Origin: a virus
Strand: one strand, 5' to 3'
DNA length: 28,148 bases
IMG/VR virus record: IMGVR_UViG_3300038428_000130
Span: 1-28,148 of that record
Part shown: positions 5,153 through 22,363 of the stretch, in pieces
Position numbering within the stretch: the stretch's first letter is position 1
How the letters are laid out: each line of letters starts with the position of its first letter
Notes under the pieces: model-generated
Told to the model about the DNA's origin: nothing
What the model saw: the letters and a program-made list of their open reading frames with translations, nothing else
Database searches by the model: none
Translations under genes and position numbers: made by a program

Positions 5153-6313
5153 TTATGACCAGAGGTCTTTGACTAACTGAATAAGCTGGCTTACCCAACC
5201 GGGTTCTTCCACTTCCGGGACAGGCTCGGGAGCCGGGATGACCGGCTCCTCTGGTTCCTCATCGTAGAGATAGTTCTTCCACAGACGAAGACCTTTGTGG
5301 TTGTGCTCGTTGAGAGCTTCCTTACCATCAAGCCACGCCCGTGGGTCGTCCAGAAGGTGAAGGCCCACGTTGGCGATGTTCTCCGGGCTATCGGGGTTTG
5401 CCTTCCACTGCTTGGGTGCCCATCGCACAGCGTCAGAGACCACGGTAGGAACTCCCATGACCACACCATCCGCCGTCACGATATTGAACGACTCGGTGAA
5501 TGACGGCTGAAACAGGAGGTCCATGGTTCTCACGAGTTCGGAGAACTTTTCCCACGGCATCCACCTGTGCTTGACTACATCAAATCCGGGGATAGCCTGA
5601 GACATCTGTTCAATCGTGTTAACAATGGCCTTGCCCTCAGACTCCCCTCCCTGATTGATATGGAAAGAGACGGGCACCTGCAAGCGGTTCTGAATGAGAA
5701 GACCGGCAGCAACCGCCGAGGGGATGTTCTTCTCCGGGCGGAGTGCGCCGAATGCACCAAGACGTAGAGGTTGAGATGAGAACCGTACCTTGCCCTCGTG
5801 ATGGCCCCGACTGGAATACAAGTCAGGCAGCAGGAAGGTATTGACCCCATAGGCTTCACTGAACCACTGGGTGAATGAACGAGAGTTCCCGGATACCGAA
5901 AGGTTGGGAAGGTCGTTCATCAAGTCGGCGTACTGGCGGAAGTTTCCTATTCCCCGGTAATCGCCATATAAAGCCGCCACGTTACAATGCGACTTTACGG
6001 TGAACTCCATGTCGGGGAAGTAGTTGACCAGTGCCTTCAAATCCAGCGGCGTAATCCACGGTGCCATGATGACACAGTGGGTCAATGGACCCTTGCCTTC
6101 TTTCGCTCGCTTGCCATTGTGAAAGAGAATGGACTGGAGAAGCTCAACGTTATCTTTAACGCCGATAACGTAAGTCCTGATTCCATGTTGGTTAAGTTCT
6201 TCCGCTGTCTTCTTTGCTGCTACGGCGAGACCCACCGAACTGTACCCTGTCCAAAAGGCAAAGTCCTTGTAGCATAGGGCAACTGCCACTTTTTTCCTGC
6301 ACCCCTCACTCAT
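5153..6313 (-). CDS. Family 4 (GT-B) glycosyltransferase
   Basis: 386 residues with two Rossmann-like halves. The second half carries the retaining GT4 signature: GAFGALRPEKN (about 187-197), then MPWEKFSELV, and SFTESFNIVTADGVVMGVP with the E-x7-type acidic pair around residues 267-285. These enzymes move a sugar from a nucleotide donor. Here the acceptor may be virion protein, DNA or a host glycan; the sequence does not say. After the catalytic part comes a Pro/Glu-rich linker (about 350-372) and a short amphipathic end (WVSQLIQLVKDLW) that could dock on membrane or a partner. Strong GGGGAGG ribosome site before the ATG at 6313. The methyltransferase follows after an intruding HNH gene. Confidence 0.85.
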   Translation of the reverse strand: MSEGCRKKVAVALCYKDFAFWTGYSSVGLAVAAKKTAEELNQHGIRTYVIGVKDNVELLQSILFHNGKRAKEGKGPLTHCVIMAPWITPLDLKALVNYFPDMEFTVKSHCNVAALYGDYRGIGNFRQYADLMNDLPNLSVSGNSRSFTQWFSEAYGVNTFLLPDLYSSRGHHEGKVRFSSQPLRLGAFGALRPEKNIPSAVAAGLLIQNRLQVPVSFHINQGGESEGKAIVNTIEQMSQAIPGFDVVKHRWMPWEKFSELVRTMDLLFQPSFTESFNIVTADGVVMGVPTVVSDAVRWAPKQWKANPDSPENIANVGLHLLDDPRAWLDGKEALNEHNHKGLRLWKNYLYDEEPEEPVIPAPEPVPEVEEPGWVSQLIQLVKDLWS

Positions 6314-9678: not shown

Positions 9679-10580
9679 AAGTGTTTCCCCAGTTCATAAC
9701 CGGCTAATAGCGCCCCGGCAATCTCCGCACCCTTTTTGGTGCCCGCCCAAATTTTCTGCCATCTCGTCTTGACGGATACTGCCTTGTACTTCTTCACAGT
9801 GTCTTGGCACTGCCCGTTGGCGAGCTTAAGCTTGTCATCATCGGCCCGAAGAGCATTGAAATCCGTAGTCAGGCTGGCGTTGGTCTTGGTCAGACCGTCA
9901 ATGGTCTGGTTCTTGGTTGTTATCTGTTGGTTAAGGTTGTCCACGTTACTTGCCAGCCGGTCCCGGTCCAGTTTCGTGGCGGTAAACTGCTGCACGATGG
10001 TGATGGGGAAGGTGAGCAACTGTTCTTTCGTCGCCGGGTCGGCGGATACGTTAAGTGTGAGCGGCAGCGGGGTGTTCTTGTAAGAATCCTTCAAGTCCCC
10101 GAATACTTCCTGTGCCGACTTGCCCGGCTGGAGAACGGCGGTAATGGACTGGTCAACCTTGGTGTTGAGGTCTTTTAGTTGCTGAATGAGGCCAGCTTCC
10201 TTGGCGTTGGCGGCGGCAATCTGTGTGGCCCATTGCGCCCGGTCAGCGGCATGTTCCGTCGCCTCCTTCTGATACTGGCTGTCGGCCTGCTTCCACGACT
10301 GCTCATACTGAACCATGAGCTTCTCAGAAGCCTCCGCCCGCTGCATGAGTTTGTCATATCCTTTAAGGCCGTAGTACGCTCCTACGCCGCCACAGGTGAG
10401 AACAAAAAACAGGATGAGAACGATGACATAGTTGAGCGTGATATGGTGGTTCACCATCTTATTCAAAATTTCCTGCGGCACAGTTACGGTGGGGGCGACC
10501 GGGGCCGGGGGCGACAATGGACCCGTATATCCCGTGTTGCCCATATATCCCGTGGTTCCCGTGGGTGCGATATTACTCAT
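9675..10580 (-). CDS. Single-span membrane protein with long coiled coil
   Basis: 301 residues. The N-terminus holds a short collagen-like run (GTTGYMGNTGYTGP, about 8-21) and a Pro-rich linker, then one transmembrane segment at about 48-70 (VIVLILFFVLTCGGVGAYY). After it come two long heptad-rich regions (about 75-140 and 205-270) and a C-terminal Gly/Ala-rich hydrophobic patch (about 283-300). One N-terminal anchor plus a long extracytoplasmic coiled coil is the layout of an inner-membrane spanin, but at 301 residues it is much longer than Rz-type proteins and no outer-membrane partner is seen. A tail- or membrane-associated role is an alternative. AGAGGAG ribosome site before 10580. Confidence 0.75.
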   Translation of the reverse strand: MSNIAPTGTTGYMGNTGYTGPLSPPAPVAPTVTVPQEILNKMVNHHITLNYVIVLILFFVLTCGGVGAYYGLKGYDKLMQRAEASEKLMVQYEQSWKQADSQYQKEATEHAADRAQWATQIAAANAKEAGLIQQLKDLNTKVDQSITAVLQPGKSAQEVFGDLKDSYKNTPLPLTLNVSADPATKEQLLTFPITIVQQFTATKLDRDRLASNVDNLNQQITTKNQTIDGLTKTNASLTTDFNALRADDDKLKLANGQCQDTVKKYKAVSVKTRWQKIWAGTKKGAEIAGALLAGYELGKHL

Positions 10581-10584
10581 GATT

Positions 10585-11769
10585 CTACTCCTCTTTGCTG
10601 CTACCTAAAGGAATTGGTAGTGAGGGGTCCACCTTTGCCATCTGTTTAGCGGAAAACTTATAGGTATCTCCATACTTCTTCACCACTTCCCGGTAGTTTT
10701 TGAAGGCTGGATTTTCCTTTTTCACCCAGTGCTTCATGACGTTATCCTTCACTATTGTGTAAATAATGAAGTAGTTCTTAGGGGATTTGACTTCCCCTTT
10801 CTTGATGGCCTCCACAATTTTGGCAGCGATGGTGGAGGGAACGTGGATGCCATCCACGAGAATGAGTTTGCGCACAAGGGCTGTGACCGTCTTCTGCCGG
10901 GACTTCTTGAGCGGCTCGTGCTGGTCTTTCCGCTTGGCGGTGGGAACGAGGGGAGACTCTCCCAGCTTGGTGTCTTCCCGGATGAGGCTTAAAGCCTCCT
11001 TGATATCCTTCGCCCGGCTGGCGGCGGCAAACTTCCTGCGGACAGTGGAGTCCTTGATTTCCCCAATCTCTTTTTCGGTAGTTGCTTCCTTGAGCGCCTC
11101 AGCCTCTTCGGCGTCGAACTCAGCATAAAGTTCGGAGAGGGCCTTTTCTCCTTCCTTTTCGTCATCTTCCTTGAGGGTGGAAACAAGGGGACAATAGTAG
11201 TAAGTTCGTATGTCTTTGGGAACATAGGAGAGGTTGAGGAGGTTCCGAACAGGGGTCTCCAGCATGATACTCTTGGTCTTCAAGGTTATGCGAATGACCG
11301 CCCGCCCGGCTCCAATAGCTGTTACCGTCCCACAGAAATCTCGGGTCTCGCCGTTAAGAACCCGGACAAAGGACCCCACCTCTACCCCGGAGGAGTGTTC
11401 CCTGAACTGCTTCTCGGCAGGGGACATAAGCTTCTGAACTTCCGTGTCGGAGACTCTTATTACCTTATTTGGCCGGTTTGAATCTCCCTCAGTGACCAGA
11501 GACACCACACCCGTGATGGTCTTTAGCCGCAATAGCCCTTGGAAACTATCACTGCGGACAAAGAGGTACGCCGCCGCCGTGAGGTCAAAAACGTCAAGGT
11601 CCCGGTGACCTACCGGTATGAACAATTCCACAGCATCTTCTCGAAAAATCTGAGGTATTTGTTTGCCTATCCGGCGTAGGGTGGGTTCGATGGTCTTCTC
11701 GCTGCGAACTTCCAGCATACACCACTCCTTGCCTTTCAGCTTGGAGCAGTCTCTATATGTTAGTAACAT
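10585..11769 (-). CDS. NusG-like transcription factor with long C-terminal extension
   Basis: 394 residues. Residues 14-120 align by eye with the NusG NGN domain: KEWCMLEVRSEKTIEPTL corresponds to the first strand and helix, AAAYLFVRS to the conserved PGYVLV strand, and TGVVSLVTEG...RPNKVIRVSDTEVQKLM to the NGN end. Residues 131-178 form a KOW domain (VGSFVRVLNG, then FCGTVTAIG and AVIRI). Known NusG homologues bind RNA polymerase and control pausing, termination or antitermination. The remaining 215 residues are charged and helical and unlike host NusG, which is about 180 residues, so this is a phage-specific paralogue. It has GGAGGACC before the ATG and a strong operon-head motif, and may help direct phage gene expression. 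Confidence 0.75.
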   Translation of the reverse strand: MLLTYRDCSKLKGKEWCMLEVRSEKTIEPTLRRIGKQIPQIFREDAVELFIPVGHRDLDVFDLTAAAYLFVRSDSFQGLLRLKTITGVVSLVTEGDSNRPNKVIRVSDTEVQKLMSPAEKQFREHSSGVEVGSFVRVLNGETRDFCGTVTAIGAGRAVIRITLKTKSIMLETPVRNLLNLSYVPKDIRTYYYCPLVSTLKEDDEKEGEKALSELYAEFDAEEAEALKEATTEKEIGEIKDSTVRRKFAAASRAKDIKEALSLIREDTKLGESPLVPTAKRKDQHEPLKKSRQKTVTALVRKLILVDGIHVPSTIAAKIVEAIKKGEVKSPKNYFIIYTIVKDNVMKHWVKKENPAFKNYREVVKKYGDTYKFSAKQMAKVDPSLPIPLGSSKEE

Positions 11770-11796: not shown

Positions 11797-12546
11797 TTAG
11801 CGCAAACGTCCTAGCTTATCCCGTTGTCTTCCCTGTGTGCTTTTACTGATTTTGGCACGTATCTCGGGAGAAAGCCGTCTCGCACTCGCTATTTTACTAA
11901 GTTTGGCTCTAGTCTCATCTGACACAACCCTCTGTCTGCACTTAGCACGGAATTCTTCCGACCGTTTTCTACCACGATTGGATGCGGATATTTTAGCAGT
12001 GCATTCGGGAGCCTGCTTTCTTCCTTTCGCTACTTTACTCATCTTGATTCTTTCCTCAATTGGAACTTCTCTGCCCGTTAATGCATTGCTCAATTTTTGT
12101 CTTGTTTCCTGAGACACCTCTCGGTTACACATACATTTCCGTATGCTGTCAATGCGGGACTGTTTAGTCTCTGGATTAGCCCAAGCAGCCTTATTACCTT
12201 CTCCAATCTTCTTACGAGTTTCATCTGAAAGGGGTCCGGTTCTTCCCTCCCCACCCCGGCATATATTGTACCCATACTCAGGGTCCTGCGACCGCAGGAA
12301 CTTGATGAAATCCCGTTCAGTTTGGTCAAGCTCTTCTCGGTCAGTGATGTCGGCCCGGAGGGCGTGTATGGACCAAGAAGAGGGGTCTGAGTGTGCTCGC
12401 ATAGACTGATAAAGGCGAGATTGGTTTGAGATACCTCTTTGGGCGTGGTGAAACTTCTGCTGAAGATATTTCTTTAGATTGTTCCCCTTATGCTGACCGA
12501 CATAGTACTTACCGGTCTCGTGGTTAACAATGAGATAAATGAACAT
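11797..12546 (-). CDS. GIY-YIG homing endonuclease with NUMOD3 repeats
   Basis: 249 residues. The nuclease domain begins FIYLIVN with YYVGQHKGNNL as the YIG element, and YGYNICRGGEG marks the end of the catalytic region. The C-terminal half is a run of NUMOD3-like basic helices (SDETRKKIGEGN, SQETRQKLSNALTGR, ERIKMSKVAKGRK, SEEFRAK, SDETRAKLSKIAS, SPEIRAKISKSTQGR) expected to wrap along the target DNA. It is free-standing between the clamp loader and the NusG-like gene. Good GGGAAGAAG ribosome site. Confidence 0.9.
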   Translation of the reverse strand: MFIYLIVNHETGKYYVGQHKGNNLKKYLQQKFHHAQRGISNQSRLYQSMRAHSDPSSWSIHALRADITDREELDQTERDFIKFLRSQDPEYGYNICRGGEGRTGPLSDETRKKIGEGNKAAWANPETKQSRIDSIRKCMCNREVSQETRQKLSNALTGREVPIEERIKMSKVAKGRKQAPECTAKISASNRGRKRSEEFRAKCRQRVVSDETRAKLSKIASARRLSPEIRAKISKSTQGRQRDKLGRLR

Positions 12547-12581
12547 AACTTCTTCCCGATTAAGGATTAGGAAGTTGTTTT

Positions 12582-13688
12582 TTACAAAACTTCACCTTTC
12601 AGGATGGCTTGGCTGGAAGAGAAATTCTTGCTTGGAGCATTGGTCGGCGGCTTGACTGATTTGAGGATTCTCGCCGCCGCCATAAGCTCGTACACAAAAA
12701 GGGGGAGGGCATCAGCGGGAATGAACGGGGTCGCTAACCATTTGAGAAATATAGCGGAAGTCTCCTTAATGTTGGGGAGCGTCTCAGCAATACGAGCAAG
12801 CTCCGAGGCTGGCTCCGACCATGGGGACTTGGCATAAAGGGAAAAGGTAGTTTCAATGACCTTGGTTGGAAGCGCTACCCGTGCGCCATCGTCGGCAAGC
12901 TTGACGGCAGCGGCTTGGTCCCCATGGCTTATAGCCAGCAGGATGCTGTAGCATACGCTTTCTAGGGGATTATCCAGAACCTTGTCAACGTTCTCCCTGT
13001 TCACCTTGCCCAGTGCGGCGGCGAATCCCAGCCAACGGACCGCCTCCCTTATGATGCCTTTGGAGTGTTTGGCGATGTCCTTGATAGCATCAAGTTCATA
13101 GTCAATGCCGTTACGGGAGGCTATGCTCGCCATCAGGCCGGTAATCACGTCGTCTGTGGCACGATAGAAAGTCAGCGGCAAACAGCGGGACTGGATGGTC
13201 TTGGGGATGCGGTTGTCATCGGTGGTAACGAACATGAAGATACTGTCAGTGTCGGGGCGCTCCAGTGGCTTGAGGAAAACATCCCAAGCTTCCGAAGAAA
13301 GCCGATGGGCTTCATCAATCACAGCGACCCGGCGCTTCCCAGTGATGGGCGGCTGCGCCATGCAGTCCATTAAATTGCGGGCATCTTGCACGCCGGGGTG
13401 TTCAGCAGCATCCGTTTCAAAGAAGTCGGCGTCATGCTCAATTGTCTCTTGGTCGATGAAGCGACAGGAGGGGCACGTTCCACAACCCAGTGGGTCACTC
13501 CCGGCGCACATGAGCGCACGGGAAAGAAGGTAGGCCACAGAGGTTTTCCCAAGGCCCCATGGACCTTTGAGGATGAAACCACGAGGAAGAAACTTTCCCG
13601 TAGTCAGGAGACTCTTGAGTAAGGATACGACTCTGTCTTGTCCCACGACTTCGCTCCAAGCCGTGGGACGAAAGGAGATTAGATTCAT
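12582..13688 (-). CDS. dnaX: DNA polymerase III clamp-loader subunit (gamma/tau-like)
   Basis: 368 residues, AAA+ clamp loader. The N-terminus FRPTAWSEVVGQD is the family signature. Walker A is GPWGLGKT (42-49), the zinc module is C61 with CGTCPSC (69-75), Walker B is VAVIDEAH (121-128), and the SRC arginine-finger motif is at 167-169. It uses ATP to open and load a sliding clamp on primed DNA. The length matches a gamma-like protein without the tau extension. With the probable sliding clamp and the TOPRIM primase it indicates a phage with a partly autonomous replisome. GAGAGG lies upstream of the ATG with a rather long spacer. The gene symbol is by analogy to the bacterial family. Confidence 0.9.
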   Translation of the reverse strand: MNLISFRPTAWSEVVGQDRVVSLLKSLLTTGKFLPRGFILKGPWGLGKTSVAYLLSRALMCAGSDPLGCGTCPSCRFIDQETIEHDADFFETDAAEHPGVQDARNLMDCMAQPPITGKRRVAVIDEAHRLSSEAWDVFLKPLERPDTDSIFMFVTTDDNRIPKTIQSRCLPLTFYRATDDVITGLMASIASRNGIDYELDAIKDIAKHSKGIIREAVRWLGFAAALGKVNRENVDKVLDNPLESVCYSILLAISHGDQAAAVKLADDGARVALPTKVIETTFSLYAKSPWSEPASELARIAETLPNIKETSAIFLKWLATPFIPADALPLFVYELMAAARILKSVKPPTNAPSKNFSSSQAILKGEVL

Positions 13689-14588: not shown

Positions 14589-15783
14589 CCTTAATCTCCT
14601 CGCTGGAATCCGCTTCGGTGCCAATCACCGCCAGTCCATAATTTCCCGCACCGTCTAATGCCAAGGCGTTGATAATGCTGTCAACGATGGTGAGCGTGGC
14701 ATCATGCATATCGGTTAGCCAGATAGCCCAGAAATCCTTGATTTGCAACCCGCCCTGCGCCTTGATGGCGAGCTTGACATGCTTCCTGAATTCTGGCATG
14801 TCGAACCCCCGGAGCAATGCCGCCCCGGCGTCGAAGTTGTTGACATTGGGGTTGATATCTACGCTCAAGATAGGCTTGTTGACAATCTTCTCCCCGCCAC
14901 CCTTGACCTTCTTGGCAACCGGCTGCACGAGGGTAAGATTCGCCCCGGCAAGCTCGGGGTCATTGGTCATCTCCATCAGAGTGAACGCCACGGAAGGACT
15001 TGTTACCCCCACAGGGTCGCTGACCTTATGGATGCGCACCTGTGACGGGCATCCGAGGCAGGCGACAAACTCATTCTCCAAGGGTGTGAAAGCGAAGAAA
15101 GCGGAAACAATCTTTTCCATCTCTTTGTCTTCCAGCTTCTCTACTTCATCCGGGCGGAATTTGGCAAGCTCGTCCGCACGGGATTTCATCTCCGCTGAAT
15201 AGCGAGTCCCGTTGTAGATTTTGTTCAAAAAGAAAGACGGCCATTCCGCCCCCCCGAACGACCAGCAGAGGGAGAACGTCTTTACACCTAAATCCTCAAG
15301 GATGTTCCGTAGAGCAAGGATAACATCTTTGGAAGTATTCTCAATAAACGCCTGCCCATGTGGGAAATCCAAGAGTACGGGAAATTGTTGTCGAGAAGTA
15401 ACAATAGAAGAATTGACCTGTTCTTCAATAACCTCCTTTTCCTTTTTAGCGAGGAACTTAAAGGGTCTTCCCATATTTCGGTAAGAGAGTGCCTCCTTTT
15501 TTGACATCGGGTCTTGAAGGTCTTTACCCCCGTTTACTATTAGCCAAAACCCATAACATCCATTACTCAATGAGAAGTCTAAGGCGGGGGGAACTTCCTT
15601 TTCCTCATCAAGGCGGGGGCTAAAGAAGGGATTTATGCCTATGCTTTCAGTTTCGGTTCCCTTAGTTTCAGCCAAAACCGTAGCTTGTAGAAACTCCTGA
15701 ATATTACCACCATTAAGGTTGTTTTGAAAAACTGTAGAATCTGATTCTATGCCGAAGATAGCCCAGTTAGAATGTCCAAACAT
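14578..15783 (-). CDS. Unknown 401-residue protein, possibly RdgC-like
   Basis: 401 residues, no confident family. Blocks that look conserved are FPVLLDFPHGQAFIENTS, LSFGGAEWPSFFLNKIYN-type and FRPDEVEKLEDKEMEKIV. The spacing of a hydrophobic strand, an Asp-x3-Gly turn and a helix (about residues 134-165) recalls the middle of RdgC recombination-associated proteins, but I would not rely on it. The 5' 480 bases (15301-15780) are about 41% GC by count, against 53% for 15001-15300 and 62% for 14941-15060; the low part abuts the endonuclease gene that overlaps its start by 37 bases. See the separate finding. Confidence 0.75.
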   Translation of the reverse strand: MFGHSNWAIFGIESDSTVFQNNLNGGNIQEFLQATVLAETKGTETESIGINPFFSPRLDEEKEVPPALDFSLSNGCYGFWLIVNGGKDLQDPMSKKEALSYRNMGRPFKFLAKKEKEVIEEQVNSSIVTSRQQFPVLLDFPHGQAFIENTSKDVILALRNILEDLGVKTFSLCWSFGGAEWPSFFLNKIYNGTRYSAEMKSRADELAKFRPDEVEKLEDKEMEKIVSAFFAFTPLENEFVACLGCPSQVRIHKVSDPVGVTSPSVAFTLMEMTNDPELAGANLTLVQPVAKKVKGGGEKIVNKPILSVDINPNVNNFDAGAALLRGFDMPEFRKHVKLAIKAQGGLQIKDFWAIWLTDMHDATLTIVDSIINALALDGAGNYGLAVIGTEADSSEEIKDES

Positions 15784-16331
15784 TTTTCCTCCTCATATTT
15801 CTTAAGGTATTCAGCCAATCCTAAAATTCTTTCCTTGTTCTCGTGTAAAAACCCCAAAGCAGCATTGCATCCATTACAGAGGATTCCTCTCACTTTCAAA
15901 GTAGTGTGATTATGGTCTATTGACCAATCCCACCCCCACCGCCCCCGTGAAGTAGAACCACACCCTAAGTTAGCACATTTTCTTCCCTGTAATTCAAACA
16001 TTTCCTTTACTTTTTCTGGAGTTAACTTATATTGCCTTTTTAAAACGGAACGTCGGCGTATAAGCTTGTCTTTTTCTGTGTTATTTTTTCTCCACCGACG
16101 AGTTTTAGCTGCAACCTTTTCAGGATTAGCAAGCCTCCACTTTTCAACAATATTTCGGCGACATATCTTACACCGCCTTCTCTTTCCTCCCGTTAAATTG
16201 TCTTCGGTTAACGGATGACCATATTTGCAGGTTAACCGAGAATTTATATACTTTTTACCTTTTCTACAGTTAGCATATTGGGCTAACCGCTGTTTTTGTT
16301 CTGCTGTTCTCTCATAAACCCCTGTAGGCAT
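15747..16331 (-). CDS. Endonuclease VII-like nuclease
   Basis: 194 residues, starting MPTGVYERT, a typical opening for phage mobile nucleases. A C-x2-C finger pair (CKYGH, CKIC) precedes a very basic region, then an endonuclease VII-type core: C119 and C124, DHNH at 139-142, RGILCNGCN with C152 and C155, and the LGFLHENKERI helix. The open frame begins two codons earlier at a TTG, but GAGGGGG spaced from the ATG at 16331 supports the shorter start. Free-standing and overlapping the downstream gene's start by 37 bases. It is AT-rich relative to the phage core genes. A homing role is inferred from context; resolvase activity is the alternative. Confidence 0.85.
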   Translation of the reverse strand: MPTGVYERTAEQKQRLAQYANCRKGKKYINSRLTCKYGHPLTEDNLTGGKRRRCKICRRNIVEKWRLANPEKVAAKTRRWRKNNTEKDKLIRRRSVLKRQYKLTPEKVKEMFELQGRKCANLGCGSTSRGRWGWDWSIDHNHTTLKVRGILCNGCNAALGFLHENKERILGLAEYLKKYEEEKCLDILTGLSSA

Positions 16332-16405
16332 AATCAACCCCCTCTCTTTCTGATATAGGGGCTGATAGTCATTTTAATGAAAATAACCAACCCAATCACT
16401 AAAGG

Positions 16406-16756: not shown

Positions 16757-17158
16757 TTAAGGGCACTCAATTAGTCCAAAGTCTCCGTCCCGATTAACCA
16801 CGTACACTGTGCGAGACCACTGGACTTTGTTGCCGGAATAGAGTCCTTCACCGATGAGGATTTCCGGGCTGAATCCAAGACCAATAGACAGGTCAGAGTT
16901 GGTGTGCTGCCATTCTCCATCCAGAGATAGCAACCTACCATCTGAACCAATTTCATCCCACCGGGCCTCATAGTTCAACACGACGCTCCCGAGTTTCTTG
17001 CGCCGGTCCCGGAGTTTCCACTTGGTGTACTTGTCGGCTGCCCACATGTACCAGACCATCGGACTAAGATGGTAAGTCCAGTAGCGATGCAGTCCTTTCC
17101 AAAACCCGAACCGCTGGATGGCGTAAATGAGATACCACTCCTTGAGCCTCTTTCCCAT
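16757..17158 (-). CDS. Chimeric small gene containing a portal-protein fragment
   Basis: 133 residues. The start at 17158 has a strong AGGAGAGGGG ribosome site. Residues 1 to about 57 (GKRLKEWYLIYAIQRFGFW...) are an aromatic, basic domain that I do not recognise. From about residue 58 (VVLNYEARWDEIGSDGR) to residue 113 (SGNKVQ) the sequence is portal-like; residues 72-113, from SDGR to SGNKVQ, are identical to the portal gene at the window's right end over 127 bases. It then diverges to VVNRDGDFGLIECP and a TAA that interrupts an apparent zinc ribbon continuing into 16406-16678. The product is probably not a functional portal; it looks like a recombination scar or partial duplication. Confidence 0.6.
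   Translation of the reverse strand: MGKRLKEWYLIYAIQRFGFWKGLHRYWTYHLSPMVWYMWAADKYTKWKLRDRRKKLGSVVLNYEARWDEIGSDGRLLSLDGEWQHTNSDLSIGLGFSPEILIGEGLYSGNKVQWSRTVYVVNRDGDFGLIECP
16819..16945. repeat. Direct repeat copy A (127 bases, portal fragment)
   Basis: Identical, base for base, to 28022-28148, same orientation, offset 11,203. The left boundary is sharp: C at 16818 against A at 28021. The right boundary cannot be seen because the other copy reaches the end of the window. It encodes the SDGR to SGNKVQ part of the portal protein in frame. Confidence 0.95.
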
Positions 17159-17164
17159 GCCCCT

Positions 17165-17183
17165 CTCCTGTTCTTTAATACTC
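17165..17183 (-). promoter_or_regulatory. Possible operon-head motif inside the primase gene's 3' end
   Basis: On the minus strand GAGTATTAAAGAACAGGAG closely resembles the copy at 22670-22690 (GAGTATTATTCAACGGAGG). It overlaps the last codons of the TOPRIM gene and ends in the ribosome site of the gene starting at 17158. Weaker than the others because coding constraint overlaps it. Confidence 0.3.
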
Positions 17184-17915
17184 GAAATACTTGGCGGTTC
17201 GTGATTGTAAGTCTCTTGCCCACTCATATTTTTCCAATGCCTTACTGGGGTCCTTTTTTGTACACTCACAGGTTATAACCTGCATAACCTTGATGTTTCT
17301 CCGCTGCTGTTCCATGGACTCCTCACCCTGAATCTCATTGTCGTACATCAACAACAGCCGCTTCACCCCAAGGATACGAAGGTAGGCAATGTGGTTCTTT
17401 CCTACCTTCTTGGTGAGGGGAGACATTATGGGAAAGCTCGGGCAAATCAGGCGCATTGCCAACAGGTCAAACGGGCCTTCCACGCACATAACCGACTGGG
17501 TCTCAATGATTTGCCTGATAGTCTCAGGGTCATTACCCAACCAGTTTGGACCAATGTACTTTTCCTTATCCCCGACATACTGGTACTTCCCATCCACACT
17601 CCACAGGGCGCTTCCCTCTAACGGTTTGGTTTGCGCACGGGGGTAGGTACCATCAGCGGAGCGCATGGGGAAGATAAACGCCGGGCCGGGGATAATGAGT
17701 TTGGGGATGTAGAGACACCCCAGTCGGGTTACAACATCCCTAAAGCGACCCTCGTATATGGGAAGAGATTCCTCCCAGTGGCGCTCCTGTATAATTTTCT
17801 GAATGGTCGTCGCTTCGAGAGTCTTATCCGGGTACTTCTCTACGAGACGCTGATAGATGAGCTTGGTCTCGGCAATAATCCGGGGGACATCGGTGCGGAA
17901 CCAATCATTTTGCAT
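17175..17915 (-). CDS. DnaG-type primase, TOPRIM-domain protein
   Basis: 246 residues. The C-terminal half is a TOPRIM domain: VMCVEGPFDLLAM (143-154) carries the catalytic Glu and the Asp of motif I, SPLTKKVGKNHIAYL follows, LLLMYDNE (187-194) is the acidic metal-binding motif, and KDPSKALEKY (221-230) the DP element. Residues 45-120 (IYEGRFRDVVTRLGCLYIPKLIIPGPAFIFPMRSADG) match the segment that precedes TOPRIM in phage primases. There is no N-terminal zinc-binding domain and no helicase domain. The small Cys-containing genes directly upstream, overlapping in coupled fashion, may supply metal-binding functions. Synthesises RNA primers for phage replication (by family). Confidence 0.75.
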   Translation of the reverse strand: MQNDWFRTDVPRIIAETKLIYQRLVEKYPDKTLEATTIQKIIQERHWEESLPIYEGRFRDVVTRLGCLYIPKLIIPGPAFIFPMRSADGTYPRAQTKPLEGSALWSVDGKYQYVGDKEKYIGPNWLGNDPETIRQIIETQSVMCVEGPFDLLAMRLICPSFPIMSPLTKKVGKNHIAYLRILGVKRLLLMYDNEIQGEESMEQQRRNIKVMQVITCECTKKDPSKALEKYEWARDLQSRTAKYFEY

Positions 17916-18105
17916 CTTTCATCTCTTCCAACAATCCAGTAAACTCCACAAATTGTGCCTCAGCCTCCGGGTCATCGGGCGGACACAGGCTGCACACCAG
18001 CTTGGGGTAAGAACGCATCGTGCCGTTGTAGCACACGTGGGTCTTCCCTTTAATATACTGCATCAGCAGTTGAATCTTCGGATTGTTAGACGGCAGGGCT
18101 GCCAT
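17905..18105 (-). CDS. Small Cys-containing protein upstream of primase
   Basis: 66 residues from the ATG at 18105, chosen for AAGGCGGAA just upstream; the frame is open to 18156. THVCYNG and KLVCSLCPPDDPEA give three cysteines in a loose zinc-finger-like pattern. It overlaps the upstream gene by 20 bases and the primase start by 11 bases, so all three are likely co-translated. It could assist the primase, but that is inference from position only. Confidence 0.65.
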   Translation of the reverse strand: MAALPSNNPKIQLLMQYIKGKTHVCYNGTMRSYPKLVCSLCPPDDPEAEAQFVEFTGLLEEMKDAK

Positions 18106-18481
18106 TTTCCGCCTTACTCTGGATGATGGCTTCGGGAACCGCAGCCGGGATATCAAACTGACCGAGGACCCACATGAACGCCACGATGTCCCGATAGTCC
18201 TGCAAGAGTACCTCCGGGTCCCTCAGTCCCCGGTTAAACTGCTCCACAAGCTCCTGTTTGGTGTATACCGGTGTAAACCCCTTGGGGTTTTTGCAGAACT
18301 CAGGGTTGGTGGAGCCGCATACGACGCACCCTACAACTTTTCTTCCCACTATCTTAGCGTTCTTGCAGTTGTAAGGGCAGGGCTTGAGGTTCCTGAGAAT
18401 GAAACGGCGTCGGTACCGGCGCACCAAGTTTTGCAACCGGACGAGAATCTCCGACACGGATTTGAGTTTGACCGTGTTCAT
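18086..18481 (-). CDS. Zinc-ribbon protein
   Basis: 131 residues. A basic N-terminus (RRYRRRF) precedes two Cys pairs: CPYNCKNAK (about 35-43) and GCVVCGSTNPEFC (about 51-63), a typical metal-binding set. The C-terminal half is helical (ELVEQFNRGL, VLLQDYRDIVAFMWVLGQF). Similar arrangements occur in phage hypothetical proteins; no activity known to me. Its ATG overlaps the stop of the GIY-YIG gene by 4 bases, and it precedes the small Cys protein and primase. Confidence 0.75.
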   Translation of the reverse strand: MNTVKLKSVSEILVRLQNLVRRYRRRFILRNLKPCPYNCKNAKIVGRKVVGCVVCGSTNPEFCKNPKGFTPVYTKQELVEQFNRGLRDPEVLLQDYRDIVAFMWVLGQFDIPAAVPEAIIQSKAENGSPAV

Positions 18482-19044
18482 CTCACCCCTTTAATTTTTT
18501 TATTCCAAGGGGTACGTCCTAATGCCTTTTTTCTTATTTTTTCTTTGGTAGCAAGAGAATGAGGTTCTTTTTTAACTCCAGTATGAGAAAGACTCATTTT
18601 TTTACGAACGCTGAGTGAATGATGCTTTCCAAACATTGGGTTATTTTGACCCGATAGAGACTCACTCATTTGCTGACGAGTTTCGGGGGTGAAAACAAAC
18701 CGCTTTCTCGCTTTACTCATCTTCAATCTTGTAGATTGAGTTGGAGTTCCTCCTTCTCCACCTAGAGTCAAGTTGTATCCATATTTTGGTTCATGGCTGC
18801 GATATTTAGTGATGAAATATCTTTCTTGTTCGGATAAATCTTCTTTCGATGATGCCCAAGAAGACAAAACGTGTATACTAAAAGCCCCTTCTCCGTATTT
18901 TCGGATGGCTGCACCTATAGCACACGGCCTTCCTTTTCTAGCGGCATATAAGTGCATTTTCCACCTTTGAAGAAGGGAGTTACGCACCCACTTTCCGATA
19001 TATACCTTATTGTTCGTTTTGTTGAGAATCAGATAAATCAGCAT
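18478..19044 (-). CDS. GIY-YIG homing endonuclease
   Basis: 188 residues. The domain opens IYLILNKTNNKVYIGKW, a clean GIY-YIG pair, with the catalytic Arg region RWKMHLYAARKG and the Glu of LSEQERYFI. YGYNLTLGGEGG closes the domain. NUMOD3-type helices follow (TRLKMSKARKR, TRQQMSESLSGQNNPMFGKHHS). No clear ribosome site precedes the ATG, which lies inside the 3' end of the ATPase gene (38-base overlap), and the stop overlaps the next start by 4 bases. Thus it is wedged seamlessly between two phage genes. AT-rich. Confidence 0.9.
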   Translation of the reverse strand: MLIYLILNKTNNKVYIGKWVRNSLLQRWKMHLYAARKGRPCAIGAAIRKYGEGAFSIHVLSSWASSKEDLSEQERYFITKYRSHEPKYGYNLTLGGEGGTPTQSTRLKMSKARKRFVFTPETRQQMSESLSGQNNPMFGKHHSLSVRKKMSLSHTGVKKEPHSLATKEKIRKKALGRTPWNKKIKGVR

Positions 19045-19678
19045 GTTGAACCAATTGAAGAATGGGTGTTTCTTCCGAGGATGATACCCTATAAATGCGT
19101 GTTGCAGCCTCAGCTAGTTTATCTTGCCCCGTTATGGCTAAGATTGTAAACCCAAAATCATTAGCTAGGGTATGCAAAATTTTAGACATTCGGGATAAGT
19201 TCTTGCTCCCGTTTATGTTATTGAAAGACTCATCAAGAAAAATGGCTTTTGCGAGCTTAAACCTTTTACACATTATCACTCGCAAAAAAAAGGCGCATAC
19301 GTTCTGCACCCCCCCGCCGAAGGTCGTCATGATGGGACCCACCGTCTCTCCCTGCTTGCACAGGAGACGGTAGTTGTACCCCCGAGCAGTCTCCTTCTTT
19401 TCCACAACGAAGGAGATAGGCTCGGGTTCATCCTTGAATACCTGTTGGAGTCCAGCGGTAACGATGGACTCAATCTTGGTGATACCGTTGGCGCTCACCA
19501 CCTCTATGCATTTGTCGATAAGACCCAGTGCCTTCTGGAGGTCCAGTTTCTCCTCTTCAATGCGCTTAATCTTGTCGTTGAGTCGGGAGATGTTAGACTG
19601 CTCATAGATGAGTTGCTGCTCAAGGCGCTTGGCACCGGAGCGGAAAGTAGTGATGCGGTTGATGATGACGTAATCCAC
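19007..19678 (-). CDS. ABC-ATPase-like (RecN/SbcC-type) protein lacking Walker A
   Basis: 223 residues. Residues 15-60 form a coiled coil (LEQQLIYEQSNISRLNDKI). The second half is the C-lobe of an SMC/SbcC/RecN-like ATPase: signature-like TFGGGVQ (119-125), Walker B KAIFLDESFNNI (144-155) and an ILAITG strand in the H-loop position. A Walker A loop is absent, so it either partners with another ATPase subunit or is a non-hydrolysing relative. GTG start at 19678 overlapping the previous stop, with AAGGAAG as ribosome site. The 3' part, 19021-19260, is about 39% GC by count, against about 54% for 19321-19440; the change lies just before the Walker B region. The gene ends inside the GIY-YIG gene. 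Confidence 0.7.
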   Translation of the reverse strand: MDYVIINRITTFRSGAKRLEQQLIYEQSNISRLNDKIKRIEEEKLDLQKALGLIDKCIEVVSANGITKIESIVTAGLQQVFKDEPEPISFVVEKKETARGYNYRLLCKQGETVGPIMTTFGGGVQNVCAFFLRVIMCKRFKLAKAIFLDESFNNINGSKNLSRMSKILHTLANDFGFTILAITGQDKLAEAATRIYRVSSSEETPILQLVQHADLSDSQQNEQ

Positions 19679-20283: not shown

Positions 20284-20457
20284 TTAGTCTGTTGCTGCCA
20301 ACAGAGGCATACTCTCAATCCGCTCGCTCGGGTGCAGCTTCCGCTCAGCCTTCTTCATGGCGAGCTTGAATGTAGCGGCATGTACCTTGAACGAATCGTA
20401 ATTGAATCCCCACCGTTTGTGCTCGGTGTTGACCTTGTAGATTCTCACTTGTCTCAT
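20284..20457 (-). CDS. Small conserved phage protein (57 residues)
   Basis: A short frame between the GIY-YIG gene and the next phage gene. It begins RQVRIYKVNTEHKRWGF, then KVHAATFKLAMKKAERK and a short tail. A YKV-x3-KRWGF opening followed by a helix is a layout that I associate with small phage proteins of unknown function. The ATG overlaps the nuclease stop by 4 bases (ATGA), and the gene ends 8 bases before the next start, so it fits the operon exactly. GC-rich like the core genes, unlike the nuclease beside it. Confidence 0.75.
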   Translation of the reverse strand: MRQVRIYKVNTEHKRWGFNYDSFKVHAATFKLAMKKAERKLHPSERIESMPLLAATD

Positions 20458-21317
20458 GATGCTGCTCCTATTTTCAACTTTCCGGTCTCATGCTCTTTAA
20501 TACTCACCTTTGACCACCTTATTTTACTTATATTGGACATTCTAACGCTACGCTGAGGGTCAGCCCTTTTGATTTTAATCATTTTATCACGGAAATCGGG
20601 GTCAGCCCACAATCTTTTTCTACATGCACTAAGTTTAGCACGACTCTCGGGACTAAATTTTCTCCCTCTATTAGATTCAACTATCTTGGCACGAACTTGA
20701 GGCTTATTCATGGCCCTTTTAGTTATTTCGGAGTGTTGAATATGATACTGGGGGCTAGACCATACTTCGTTTATATGGGAAGCTGCTTTAGCTTTAGCTT
20801 CTGGAGAATGCATCACCTTGACTTGGTTGGTATAAAATCTAGGGTTAGACCACATCTTTTTACTGGCTTTAGATTTGTTAATGGAGGTGCCGGAACTGTT
20901 CATAGCACTCTGAATTGATTTAATTGTTTTAGAACGGAATTCTAGATTAGACCACCTTTCCTTAGAAGCTTTACCAATCTTAATACGAGCCTCGGGAGAG
21001 TGCGGTACATTACACCCGTCTCCTCCAAGGGAGATATTGTATCCAATTTCTGGATTACGAGAATCAAAAGCATATATTAAAGCCTTCTCCCATAAGCAAA
21101 GTTGATAATTGGTGGTGAGGCAAGAAATGAGGGGGCGGATAGACCAAACCCGAGAGGGATAGTTAGCCATCGCATTAAACAAGTAAGACCGTCCCCGATA
21201 AGTCCCTTTCAGGGCATCCCTAATTTTTCGTTTAAGGTATAAGTCTAGATTAGATGTAACCGTTTTACCAATGTAAATCTTCTTGGTCTCACTATTTGTT
21301 ATGACATATACGAACAT
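20454..21317 (-). CDS. GIY-YIG homing endonuclease with tandem W-x-x-P repeats
   Basis: 287 residues. The nuclease domain begins FVYVITNSETKKIYIGKT and ends near residue 107 with YNISLGGDGCN. The C-terminal 180 residues contain at least four degenerate units built around W(S/A)(N/S/D)P-x-(F/Y) or a close variant (KERWSNLEF, KKMWSNPRF, NEVWSSPQY, KRLWADPDF), mixed with NUMOD3-like helices (PESRAKLSACRK, VRAKIVESNRGRKF). These probably form a modular DNA-recognition array. GGGGGATAGTT before the ATG. Free-standing between the probable sliding clamp and the 57-residue gene. Confidence 0.9.
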   Translation of the reverse strand: MFVYVITNSETKKIYIGKTVTSNLDLYLKRKIRDALKGTYRGRSYLFNAMANYPSRVWSIRPLISCLTTNYQLCLWEKALIYAFDSRNPEIGYNISLGGDGCNVPHSPEARIKIGKASKERWSNLEFRSKTIKSIQSAMNSSGTSINKSKASKKMWSNPRFYTNQVKVMHSPEAKAKAASHINEVWSSPQYHIQHSEITKRAMNKPQVRAKIVESNRGRKFSPESRAKLSACRKRLWADPDFRDKMIKIKRADPQRSVRMSNISKIRWSKVSIKEHETGKLKIGAAS

Positions 21318-21346: not shown

Positions 21347-22363
21347 TTAAGGAATGACACGAACATCAATTTCAAAGTTCCCCCTACTTATCCGCATTGC
21401 AGCGGGGCCGGACAGCGGGGTGATGCTCTGAAATACCGCATCCTTGTCGGCTGATTGTGATAATGCCGAAACCAATAATTCGGCGGTGCTGCCGGATGTA
21501 GCAAACTTCGCCCATTCGGAAGCCTGTGGACCAAGGTTAAGGGTTGCCTCATTGCCGTACTTGTCCCGGCAGGATAACCCTTTCGTAGGACTGAACTCCA
21601 CCCGGCTGGACTTCTCACACAGGAGAACGATGCTCTTCAAGGCGCTGACGAGCCGGGCGGCATCCACTGTGGCAAAAACCGTTCCCGGCACGTTGAATAT
21701 CTGGCGCATCGGGTCTAGGGAAGTGTGCGAGGAAAAGCACCCCACCATTCCATCCTTGTGGGCTACCCAATAGCCGTTTTCACTGAGAGTGAGAGCATCC
21801 GCCACGCCGCCGCTGACAAAGCTGAGAAACGACTTCCTCGGTTGAAGGGTGATATTCCTTATGGAGTCGGGAACTTGCCATTTAACTACGCCCGCCTGCG
21901 TGCCGAGATACAGTTTGCCGTCACCCAGTGAGGGCTGACCGGAAAGCTCGGGGAGAGCCTCTACATCAATCCCGGAAAACACAATGGGGTCTAGGCGCTC
22001 TTTGGCCGGTTCACCGATAGAGTGATATTTGATGCCGGTACTGACTTCCCGGACGGTGTGAACGTGCATGAAGTTCCGGTAAGGGCCGTCCACGGACTCG
22101 ATACAGACAATGCCCATGGCGTCTACCGACATCTCAAGGCTGTCCGCCGAGGCTCGCAGGCAATCCTGCAAGTGGCTATAAGAAACGAAATGACGGACAC
22201 CCACGGGATTGAAACCCTTGGTTTGAATGAAGCTGAGAGAGCTTGACCGATAGAACACGGGGGCTTTGCCAGCGGGAATTTGTACTGCCATGTAGGCGCA
22301 TACGCTGCTGTCAAGAACACTTGACATCTTGAAAACGGAGGCAAGACTGGACTTCTTTACCAT
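21347..22363 (-). CDS. Probable DNA polymerase sliding clamp (beta-like)
   Basis: 338 residues, a little shorter than bacterial DnaN (about 370). Repeating strand-helix-strand units are visible; the region FATVDAARLVSALKSIVLLCEKSSRVEFSPTKGLSCRDKYGNEATLNL (about 229-277) has the helix and beta-sheet order of a DnaN domain, and the ending MRISRGNFEIDVRVIP resembles the C-terminal strand. No strongly conserved motif proves it. A clamp-loader gene 8 kb downstream makes a phage clamp likely. The start overlaps the preceding gene by 7 bases with GGGGAAGAGG ahead. Confidence 0.5.
   Translation of the reverse strand: MVKKSSLASVFKMSSVLDSSVCAYMAVQIPAGKAPVFYRSSSLSFIQTKGFNPVGVRHFVSYSHLQDCLRASADSLEMSVDAMGIVCIESVDGPYRNFMHVHTVREVSTGIKYHSIGEPAKERLDPIVFSGIDVEALPELSGQPSLGDGKLYLGTQAGVVKWQVPDSIRNITLQPRKSFLSFVSGGVADALTLSENGYWVAHKDGMVGCFSSHTSLDPMRQIFNVPGTVFATVDAARLVSALKSIVLLCEKSSRVEFSPTKGLSCRDKYGNEATLNLGPQASEWAKFATSGSTAELLVSALSQSADKDAVFQSITPLSGPAAMRISRGNFEIDVRVIP

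Follow-up and report, generated by a model that had tools for sequence, protein, structure and literature searches.

A GIY-YIG nuclease gene and the 3′ end of the adjoining Rad50-like ATPase gene form one replaced tract in a large soil phage, a probable footprint of intronless homing

The closest described counterparts of the locus reported here are the seg and mob genes of phage T4, which are known for distant cut sites, for co-conversion and for overlaps with the upstream gene (reviewed in PMC2988022). Intronless homing in T4 is carried out by free-standing GIY-YIG enzymes such as SegF, whose target is gene 56, and SegG, whose target is gene 32 (PMC2988022; Belle 2002 and Liu 2003, cited in PMC2993671). 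Our locus is like these in that a free-standing GIY-YIG gene adjoins a gene of DNA metabolism, the neighbour alleles of donor and recipient are distinct, a flanking tract appears to travel with the nuclease and there is a small overlap with the upstream gene. It is unlike them in that the event is inferred here from natural mosaics alone and in that the target would be a Rad50-like C-lobe ATPase, and the overlap is 38 nt (26-68 nt in relatives) as against 11-24 bp for the T4 genes. There is also a likeness to the HEG islands (PMC10448857), where DNA exchanged between phages is bordered, close to essential genes, by genes for homing nucleases; however, those islands are longer than 10 kb, of high identity and bracketed by nucleases, whereas the tracts described here are single, about 1 kb or less, of low identity and accompanied by one nuclease. 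The catalytic domain of our nuclease is detectably related to that of I-TevI, the GIY-YIG enzyme encoded in a T4 group I intron, with the catalytic Arg and Glu kept, although unlike the I-TevI gene it is free-standing. The kind of event, T4-type intronless homing, is already known; what is less usual is the near-perfect empty site, the fact that two well-separated phages have their composition step at nearly the same codon, and the end of a host gene that is encoded by the nuclease gene.

The window, by which we mean the whole 28,148-nucleotide stretch of IMG/VR record IMGVR_UViG_3300038428_000130 that was analysed, is a virus contig from a large soil phage, and the genes around its ATPase gene are all on the minus strand (Table 1). 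As judged from its sequence and predicted fold, the ATPase is a Rad50-like C-lobe: the signature motif and Walker B (FLDES) were both found, a profile search matched Rad50 3aux (E 5e-4), and the AlphaFold2 model (pLDDT 84) matches the C-terminal lobes of Rad50/SMC proteins, e.g. 1f2u_D (target TM 0.73). A Walker A N-lobe was looked for within the 223 residues and none was found, so the protein is not a complete one-chain Rad50/SMC head. A Walker A protein of about 400 aa (AAA_23, with PHROG exonuclease/SbcC-like matches) is encoded separately at L100 838-2076 (G002:C1), about 17.6 kb from the ATPase; it has a CxxC-type zinc motif at its end and an adjoining RecA-like gene, is also present in L102, L103 and L104, and was found in five of six phage records in which it was sought. 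These phages thus seem to have their Rad50-like ATPase divided between two distant genes. The conserved gene after the ATPase lies downstream of it in nearly all relatives. In L045 (5740-7341) this gene encodes 533 aa and an intein-like interruption (CFAYETPVLIRDRGFVPIG...) is apparent; a Pfam search gave no match.

Table 1. Coordinates, in the window, of the ATPase-nuclease locus and of tracts beside other nuclease genes
Feature	Position	Strand	Description
ATPase ORF	19007-19678	minus	223 aa, PHROG 15167
Native 5′ ATPase part, codons 1-129	19291..19678	-	coiled coil, core strands, GGG signature motif; GC 53.6%
Replaced 3′ ATPase part, codons ~130-223	19007..19290	-	AT-rich; remainder of signature helix, Walker B, H-loop region, tail
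ATPase/nuclease overlap	19007..19044	-	38 nt; last 12 ATPase codons and stop inside the nuclease 5′ end, different frame
Predicted free-standing GIY-YIG homing endonuclease with NUMOD3	18478..19044	-	188 aa; Pfam, PHROG
Right junction	18478..18495	-	GGGGTGAGATGAACACGG, common to the window and L003; in L003 the native ATPase end/stop and next gene start
Conserved gene after the ATPase	18086..18481	-	131 aa; directly follows the ATPase in nuclease-free relatives
Exonuclease-like gene 5′ part, candidate comparable scar	15283..15783	-	adjoins endonuclease VII-type nuclease 15747-16337
Clamp-loader gene 3′ end, candidate comparable scar	12582..12668	-	adjoins GIY-YIG gene 11797-12546
Sliding-clamp gene 3′ end, possible short scar	21347..21386	-	adjoins GIY-YIG gene 20454-21317

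The product of the gene that abuts the ATPase has the features expected of a free-standing GIY-YIG homing endonuclease with intact catalytic Arg and Glu. The domains detected were GIY-YIG (7.7e-8) and NUMOD3 (1.1e-16) only, both above the Pfam cut-off, and the PHROG match is to a homing endonuclease (6e-32). In the alignment, R27 and E74 stand at the positions altered in 1ln0 and 1mk0, two structures of the I-TevI domain with mutated catalytic residues. The gene is an ORF of its own between intact host genes and is missing at that site in close relatives. As judged from the ORFs, the arrangement is not that of an intron or intein, since the nuclease comes after an ATPase ORF bearing its own stop and the native ATPase of L003 is similar in size (222 aa). 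The original prediction had noted that the end of the ATPase gene runs 38 bases into the nuclease, and the ORFs bear this out. Equivalent overlaps measure 26 nt in L005, 26 nt in L029 and 68 nt in L035, and in all four GIY-YIG lineages the final ATPase residues are the nuclease's first codons read out of frame.

Relatives were found in IMG/VR, four of them near or moderate (L002, L003, L004 and L005); none was found among bacterial genome contigs. L003 and L004 are close relatives that lack the nuclease, and L005 is a 77% relative that carries an orthologous nuclease at the same site. A search for this ortholog across the L003 and L004 contigs (237 and 317 kb) found none, the best other GIY-YIG being at 34%. 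Read along the gene, nucleotide identity between the window and L003 is 372/389 (96%, with 98% amino acid identity) before position 19290 and 162/277 (58%) after it, and the MaxChi value for this break is 140.5, whereas the largest value among 5000 shuffles was 20.2. The 300 nt immediately upstream are about 98% identical to L003, and identity is again about 98-100% from the nuclease end onward, including the conserved downstream gene. The ATPase of L003 has the same end point and is followed immediately by the next gene, with no nuclease between. Because identity drops at 19290 and recovers past the nuclease, the last ~93 ATPase codons plus the nuclease take the place of the last ~92 codons of L003. 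Codons ~130-223 and the GIY-YIG gene are thus a single replacement, about 800 bp long, and the backbone on either side of it is nearly identical. The sharp break and the return after the nuclease are what co-conversion, in which a tract of the neighbouring gene moves with the nuclease, would leave, whichever the direction.

A chimera of metagenome assembly could in principle produce such a junction, given that the near relatives are all metagenome contigs and that the window contig ends in a 127-bp exact repeat. We attach next to no weight to this explanation: L002, another IMG contig, is 100% identical to the window across the ATPase and the nuclease, and the arrangement recurs in L005, which comes from a separate dataset. 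At 16819-16987, 169 bp of the portal gene occur as a copy inside an unrelated gene (16757-17269); the copy is not present there in L003 but is present in L002, and 127 bp of this copy match the contig end (28022-28148) exactly; the repeat probably broke the assembly of the window.

The original prediction rested on a GC contrast within the ATPase gene, and our recount agrees with it, giving 38.8% for 19021-19260 and 54.2% for 19321-19440. The best split gives 37.0% GC for 19007-19290, against the value in Table 1 for the 5′ part. The optimal GC3 change-point is codon 129 (window 19292), with 93/129 before and 32/94 after (GC3 0.72 vs 0.34), and none of 5000 permutations was as extreme. The step is real, but its placement at 19260-19320 did not hold, as it is located right after the GGG motif, within the signature helix. 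The low-GC tract had also been said to cover the Walker B and H-loop codons; both positions fall inside it, but the H-loop His is absent, the window clade reading ITGQ where most relatives have ITHQ. All ten nuclease-like ORFs of the window are AT-rich (38-48.5% GC vs 52.4% for the remainder).

We dismissed the GC step by itself as proof of exchange, since the nuclease-free L076 and L096 also become AT-richer toward the end of the ATPase gene (GC3 change -0.21 and -0.18); a GC3 fall near the gene end is seen in nuclease-free L034 as well. Such declines are what could be said for an explanation without recombination, in which the 3′ part evolves faster or gene ends are AT-rich. For the window this is excluded by the identity break, and it is hardly credible overall: a single base separates third-position identities to L003 of 116/129 and 24/67 (0.31 for the 3′ part 19007-19290) while protein conservation is still high, the downstream sequence returns to near identity, and the L003 gene has no step. 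In L076 (3001-3657) and also in L078, the nuclease-free ATPase gene passes from GC3 0.64 to 0.43 and the next gene is AT-rich (41% vs 51%), a pattern that is possibly a scar persisting after loss of the nuclease.

Whether relatives lacking the nuclease share the step was one of the two points on which the original prediction could fail, the other being agreement between trees of the two halves. L003, L004, L025 and Tunturi_5, all nuclease-free, show essentially none, and it is at the step that identity to L003 collapses. In L005, whose nuclease is 74% identical in amino acids, GC3 falls from 0.93 to 0.48 at about the same codon as in the window. When 21 ATPase lineages are compared, abutment of a GIY-YIG gene, seen in four of them, goes with larger GC3 steps (exact Mann-Whitney p 0.003, which is approximate as the lineages are related). 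One of the four, L029, has a truncated 76-aa nuclease, a genome of 43% GC and a GC3 step of only -0.07; in L035-L038, which carry another GIY-YIG gene with the 68-nt overlap, the step lies further along the gene. L040 was considered as a nuclease-free scar and dropped, because a different homing nuclease of NUMOD3/HNH type (5590-6294, opposite strand) occupies the place of the GIY-YIG gene; its ATPase gene is 98.5% identical to that of L035. In L033 the same boundary holds an HNH/endonuclease VII-like nuclease. Since different nucleases occupy it in L040 and L033, the boundary between the ATPase and the next gene looks like a hotspot.

Separate phylogenies of the two halves of the gene had been proposed as a check, and they gave a clear answer for one half only. 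The N-part tree joins the window with L003 (100/96) and rejects window plus L005 (p-AU 0.005). The C-core tree (65 columns) places the window weakly with the nuclease-bearing L005 and does not reject window plus L003 (p 0.41), so that the short C part yields no significant conflict. Conflicting half-gene trees were accordingly dropped as proof of exchange, the C part being too short; the support for exchange is the nucleotide discontinuity and the nuclease linkage, not tree conflict. The window C-core does lie within a clade of window, L003, L005 and L025 with 100/100 support, from which it follows that the donor would have been a relative.

The exchange need not have been a gain by the window lineage. 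It is possible, though improbable, that the insertion is old and was inherited vertically, with the AT-rich 3′ part and the nuclease both present in the common ancestor of the window and L005; recombination with a relative lacking the nuclease would then have removed the two from L003. Identity between the window and L005 is indeed similar for the nuclease (72.5% nt), the C-core (68%) and the N part (73%). In addition, L003 and L025 agree at 0.62 of third positions in the C-core and at 0.47 in the N part, and this relative closeness of the C-core suggests that L003 may have exchanged its 3′ part too. On the other hand, the GC3 of the L003 3′ part is in line with the gene and genome around it (0.76/0.74), which is not so for the window, and AT-richness would have had to last beside a GC3 of 0.93 in L005 across that divergence. 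By composition, the window would be the holder of the foreign piece. This alternative concerns direction and can be compatible with a homing origin, the tract and the nuclease still being a linked foreign unit.

A further concern is ordinary phage mosaicism, in which homologous recombination between co-infecting relatives would have moved a piece of about 800 bp that incidentally held a nuclease, with no role for its activity. Both junctions lie in sequence possibly common to donor and recipient, exchanges scored by the presence of a nuclease necessarily have an adjoining tract, and the window has synteny breaks without a nuclease (16819-16987 and 10359-10588). We nevertheless consider this explanation quite unlikely. 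Against the L003 contig the window has 11 discontinuities, read by eye, and a nuclease ORF is present in the window at nine of them. Three further nuclease-adjacent genes, the exonuclease-like, clamp-loader and sliding-clamp genes, were tested for breaks. The exonuclease-like gene is 56% identical to L003 in nucleotides before the break at 15283 and 93% after it (MaxChi 235 vs 19 by permutation; GC3 0.39 vs 0.70), and the clamp-loader gene passes from 98% to 55% at 12669 (MaxChi 280 vs 28) with no GC step; both breaks fall on the side facing the nuclease. In the sliding-clamp gene identity drops from 87% to 59%, a borderline case, as its MaxChi of 23 equals the highest value reached by permutation (23). 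No break was found in a control gene that has no nuclease beside it, and gene 10585-11769 has a weak break (34 vs 30) at the end away from its nuclease. Tracts thus adjoin nucleases of differing families at several genes, which, together with the intact catalytic residues of the GIY-YIG nuclease, argues against a passive passenger. The GIY-YIG gene that adjoins the clamp loader has an N-terminal part (12245-12547) with 88.5% identity to a GIY-YIG gene of the L003 contig that lies at a different site, near the position corresponding to 26965 of the window.

Taking together the observed mosaic with its sharp ends, the nuclease linkage, the catalytic residues and the overlap, we put a probability of roughly 0.78 on the 3′ tract of the ATPase gene being a footprint of intronless homing with co-conversion. 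The original prediction of a co-conversion scar beside the GIY-YIG gene is, at the level of sequence, supported by the identity break with L003 and by the linkage. The donor would have been a co-infecting related phage with the nuclease between its ATPase C-lobe gene and the next gene. The nuclease would cut ATPase genes that have no nuclease beside them, at a site in or close to codons 130-220, and the double-strand break in the recipient ATPase gene would be repaired from the nuclease-bearing phage. Repair would copy the nuclease and, upstream of it, about 250 bp of the donor ATPase 3′ end, giving a chimeric ATPase whose recoded tract would escape cutting; the window lineage would have gained the tract, as opposed to a loss in L003. 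The AT-richness could be either the composition of the donor relative or a property that evolved alongside the nuclease. A search for the donor phage found none. L029 was considered, since its genome is low in GC and a truncated relative of the nuclease occupies the corresponding place, but was rejected as donor because the ATPase C-cores of L029 and the window share only 52% identity.

A more tentative extension, which we think rather unlikely to be correct, is that a stable mobile cassette of two parts, the nuclease and the recoded last ~93 codons, has repeatedly entered GC-rich phages at the same codon. Since the first codons of the nuclease encode the ATPase end, the phage would then be unable to lose the nuclease 5′ end without altering a probably important recombination protein; the shortened nuclease kept in L029 would point this way.

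The locus offers a well-preserved natural snapshot of apparent intronless homing beyond the T4-type phages, with an empty site and exact junctions, and the L003 and window alleles are a directly testable pair of substrates. Intragenic GC steps in phages can flag nuclease-linked exchange, although they are unreliable without alignment. At least two more nuclease-linked breaks occur in core DNA-metabolism genes within the same 28 kb, which indicates that in these relatives of soil jumbo phages homing nucleases have repeatedly exchanged the ends of genes for recombination and replication.
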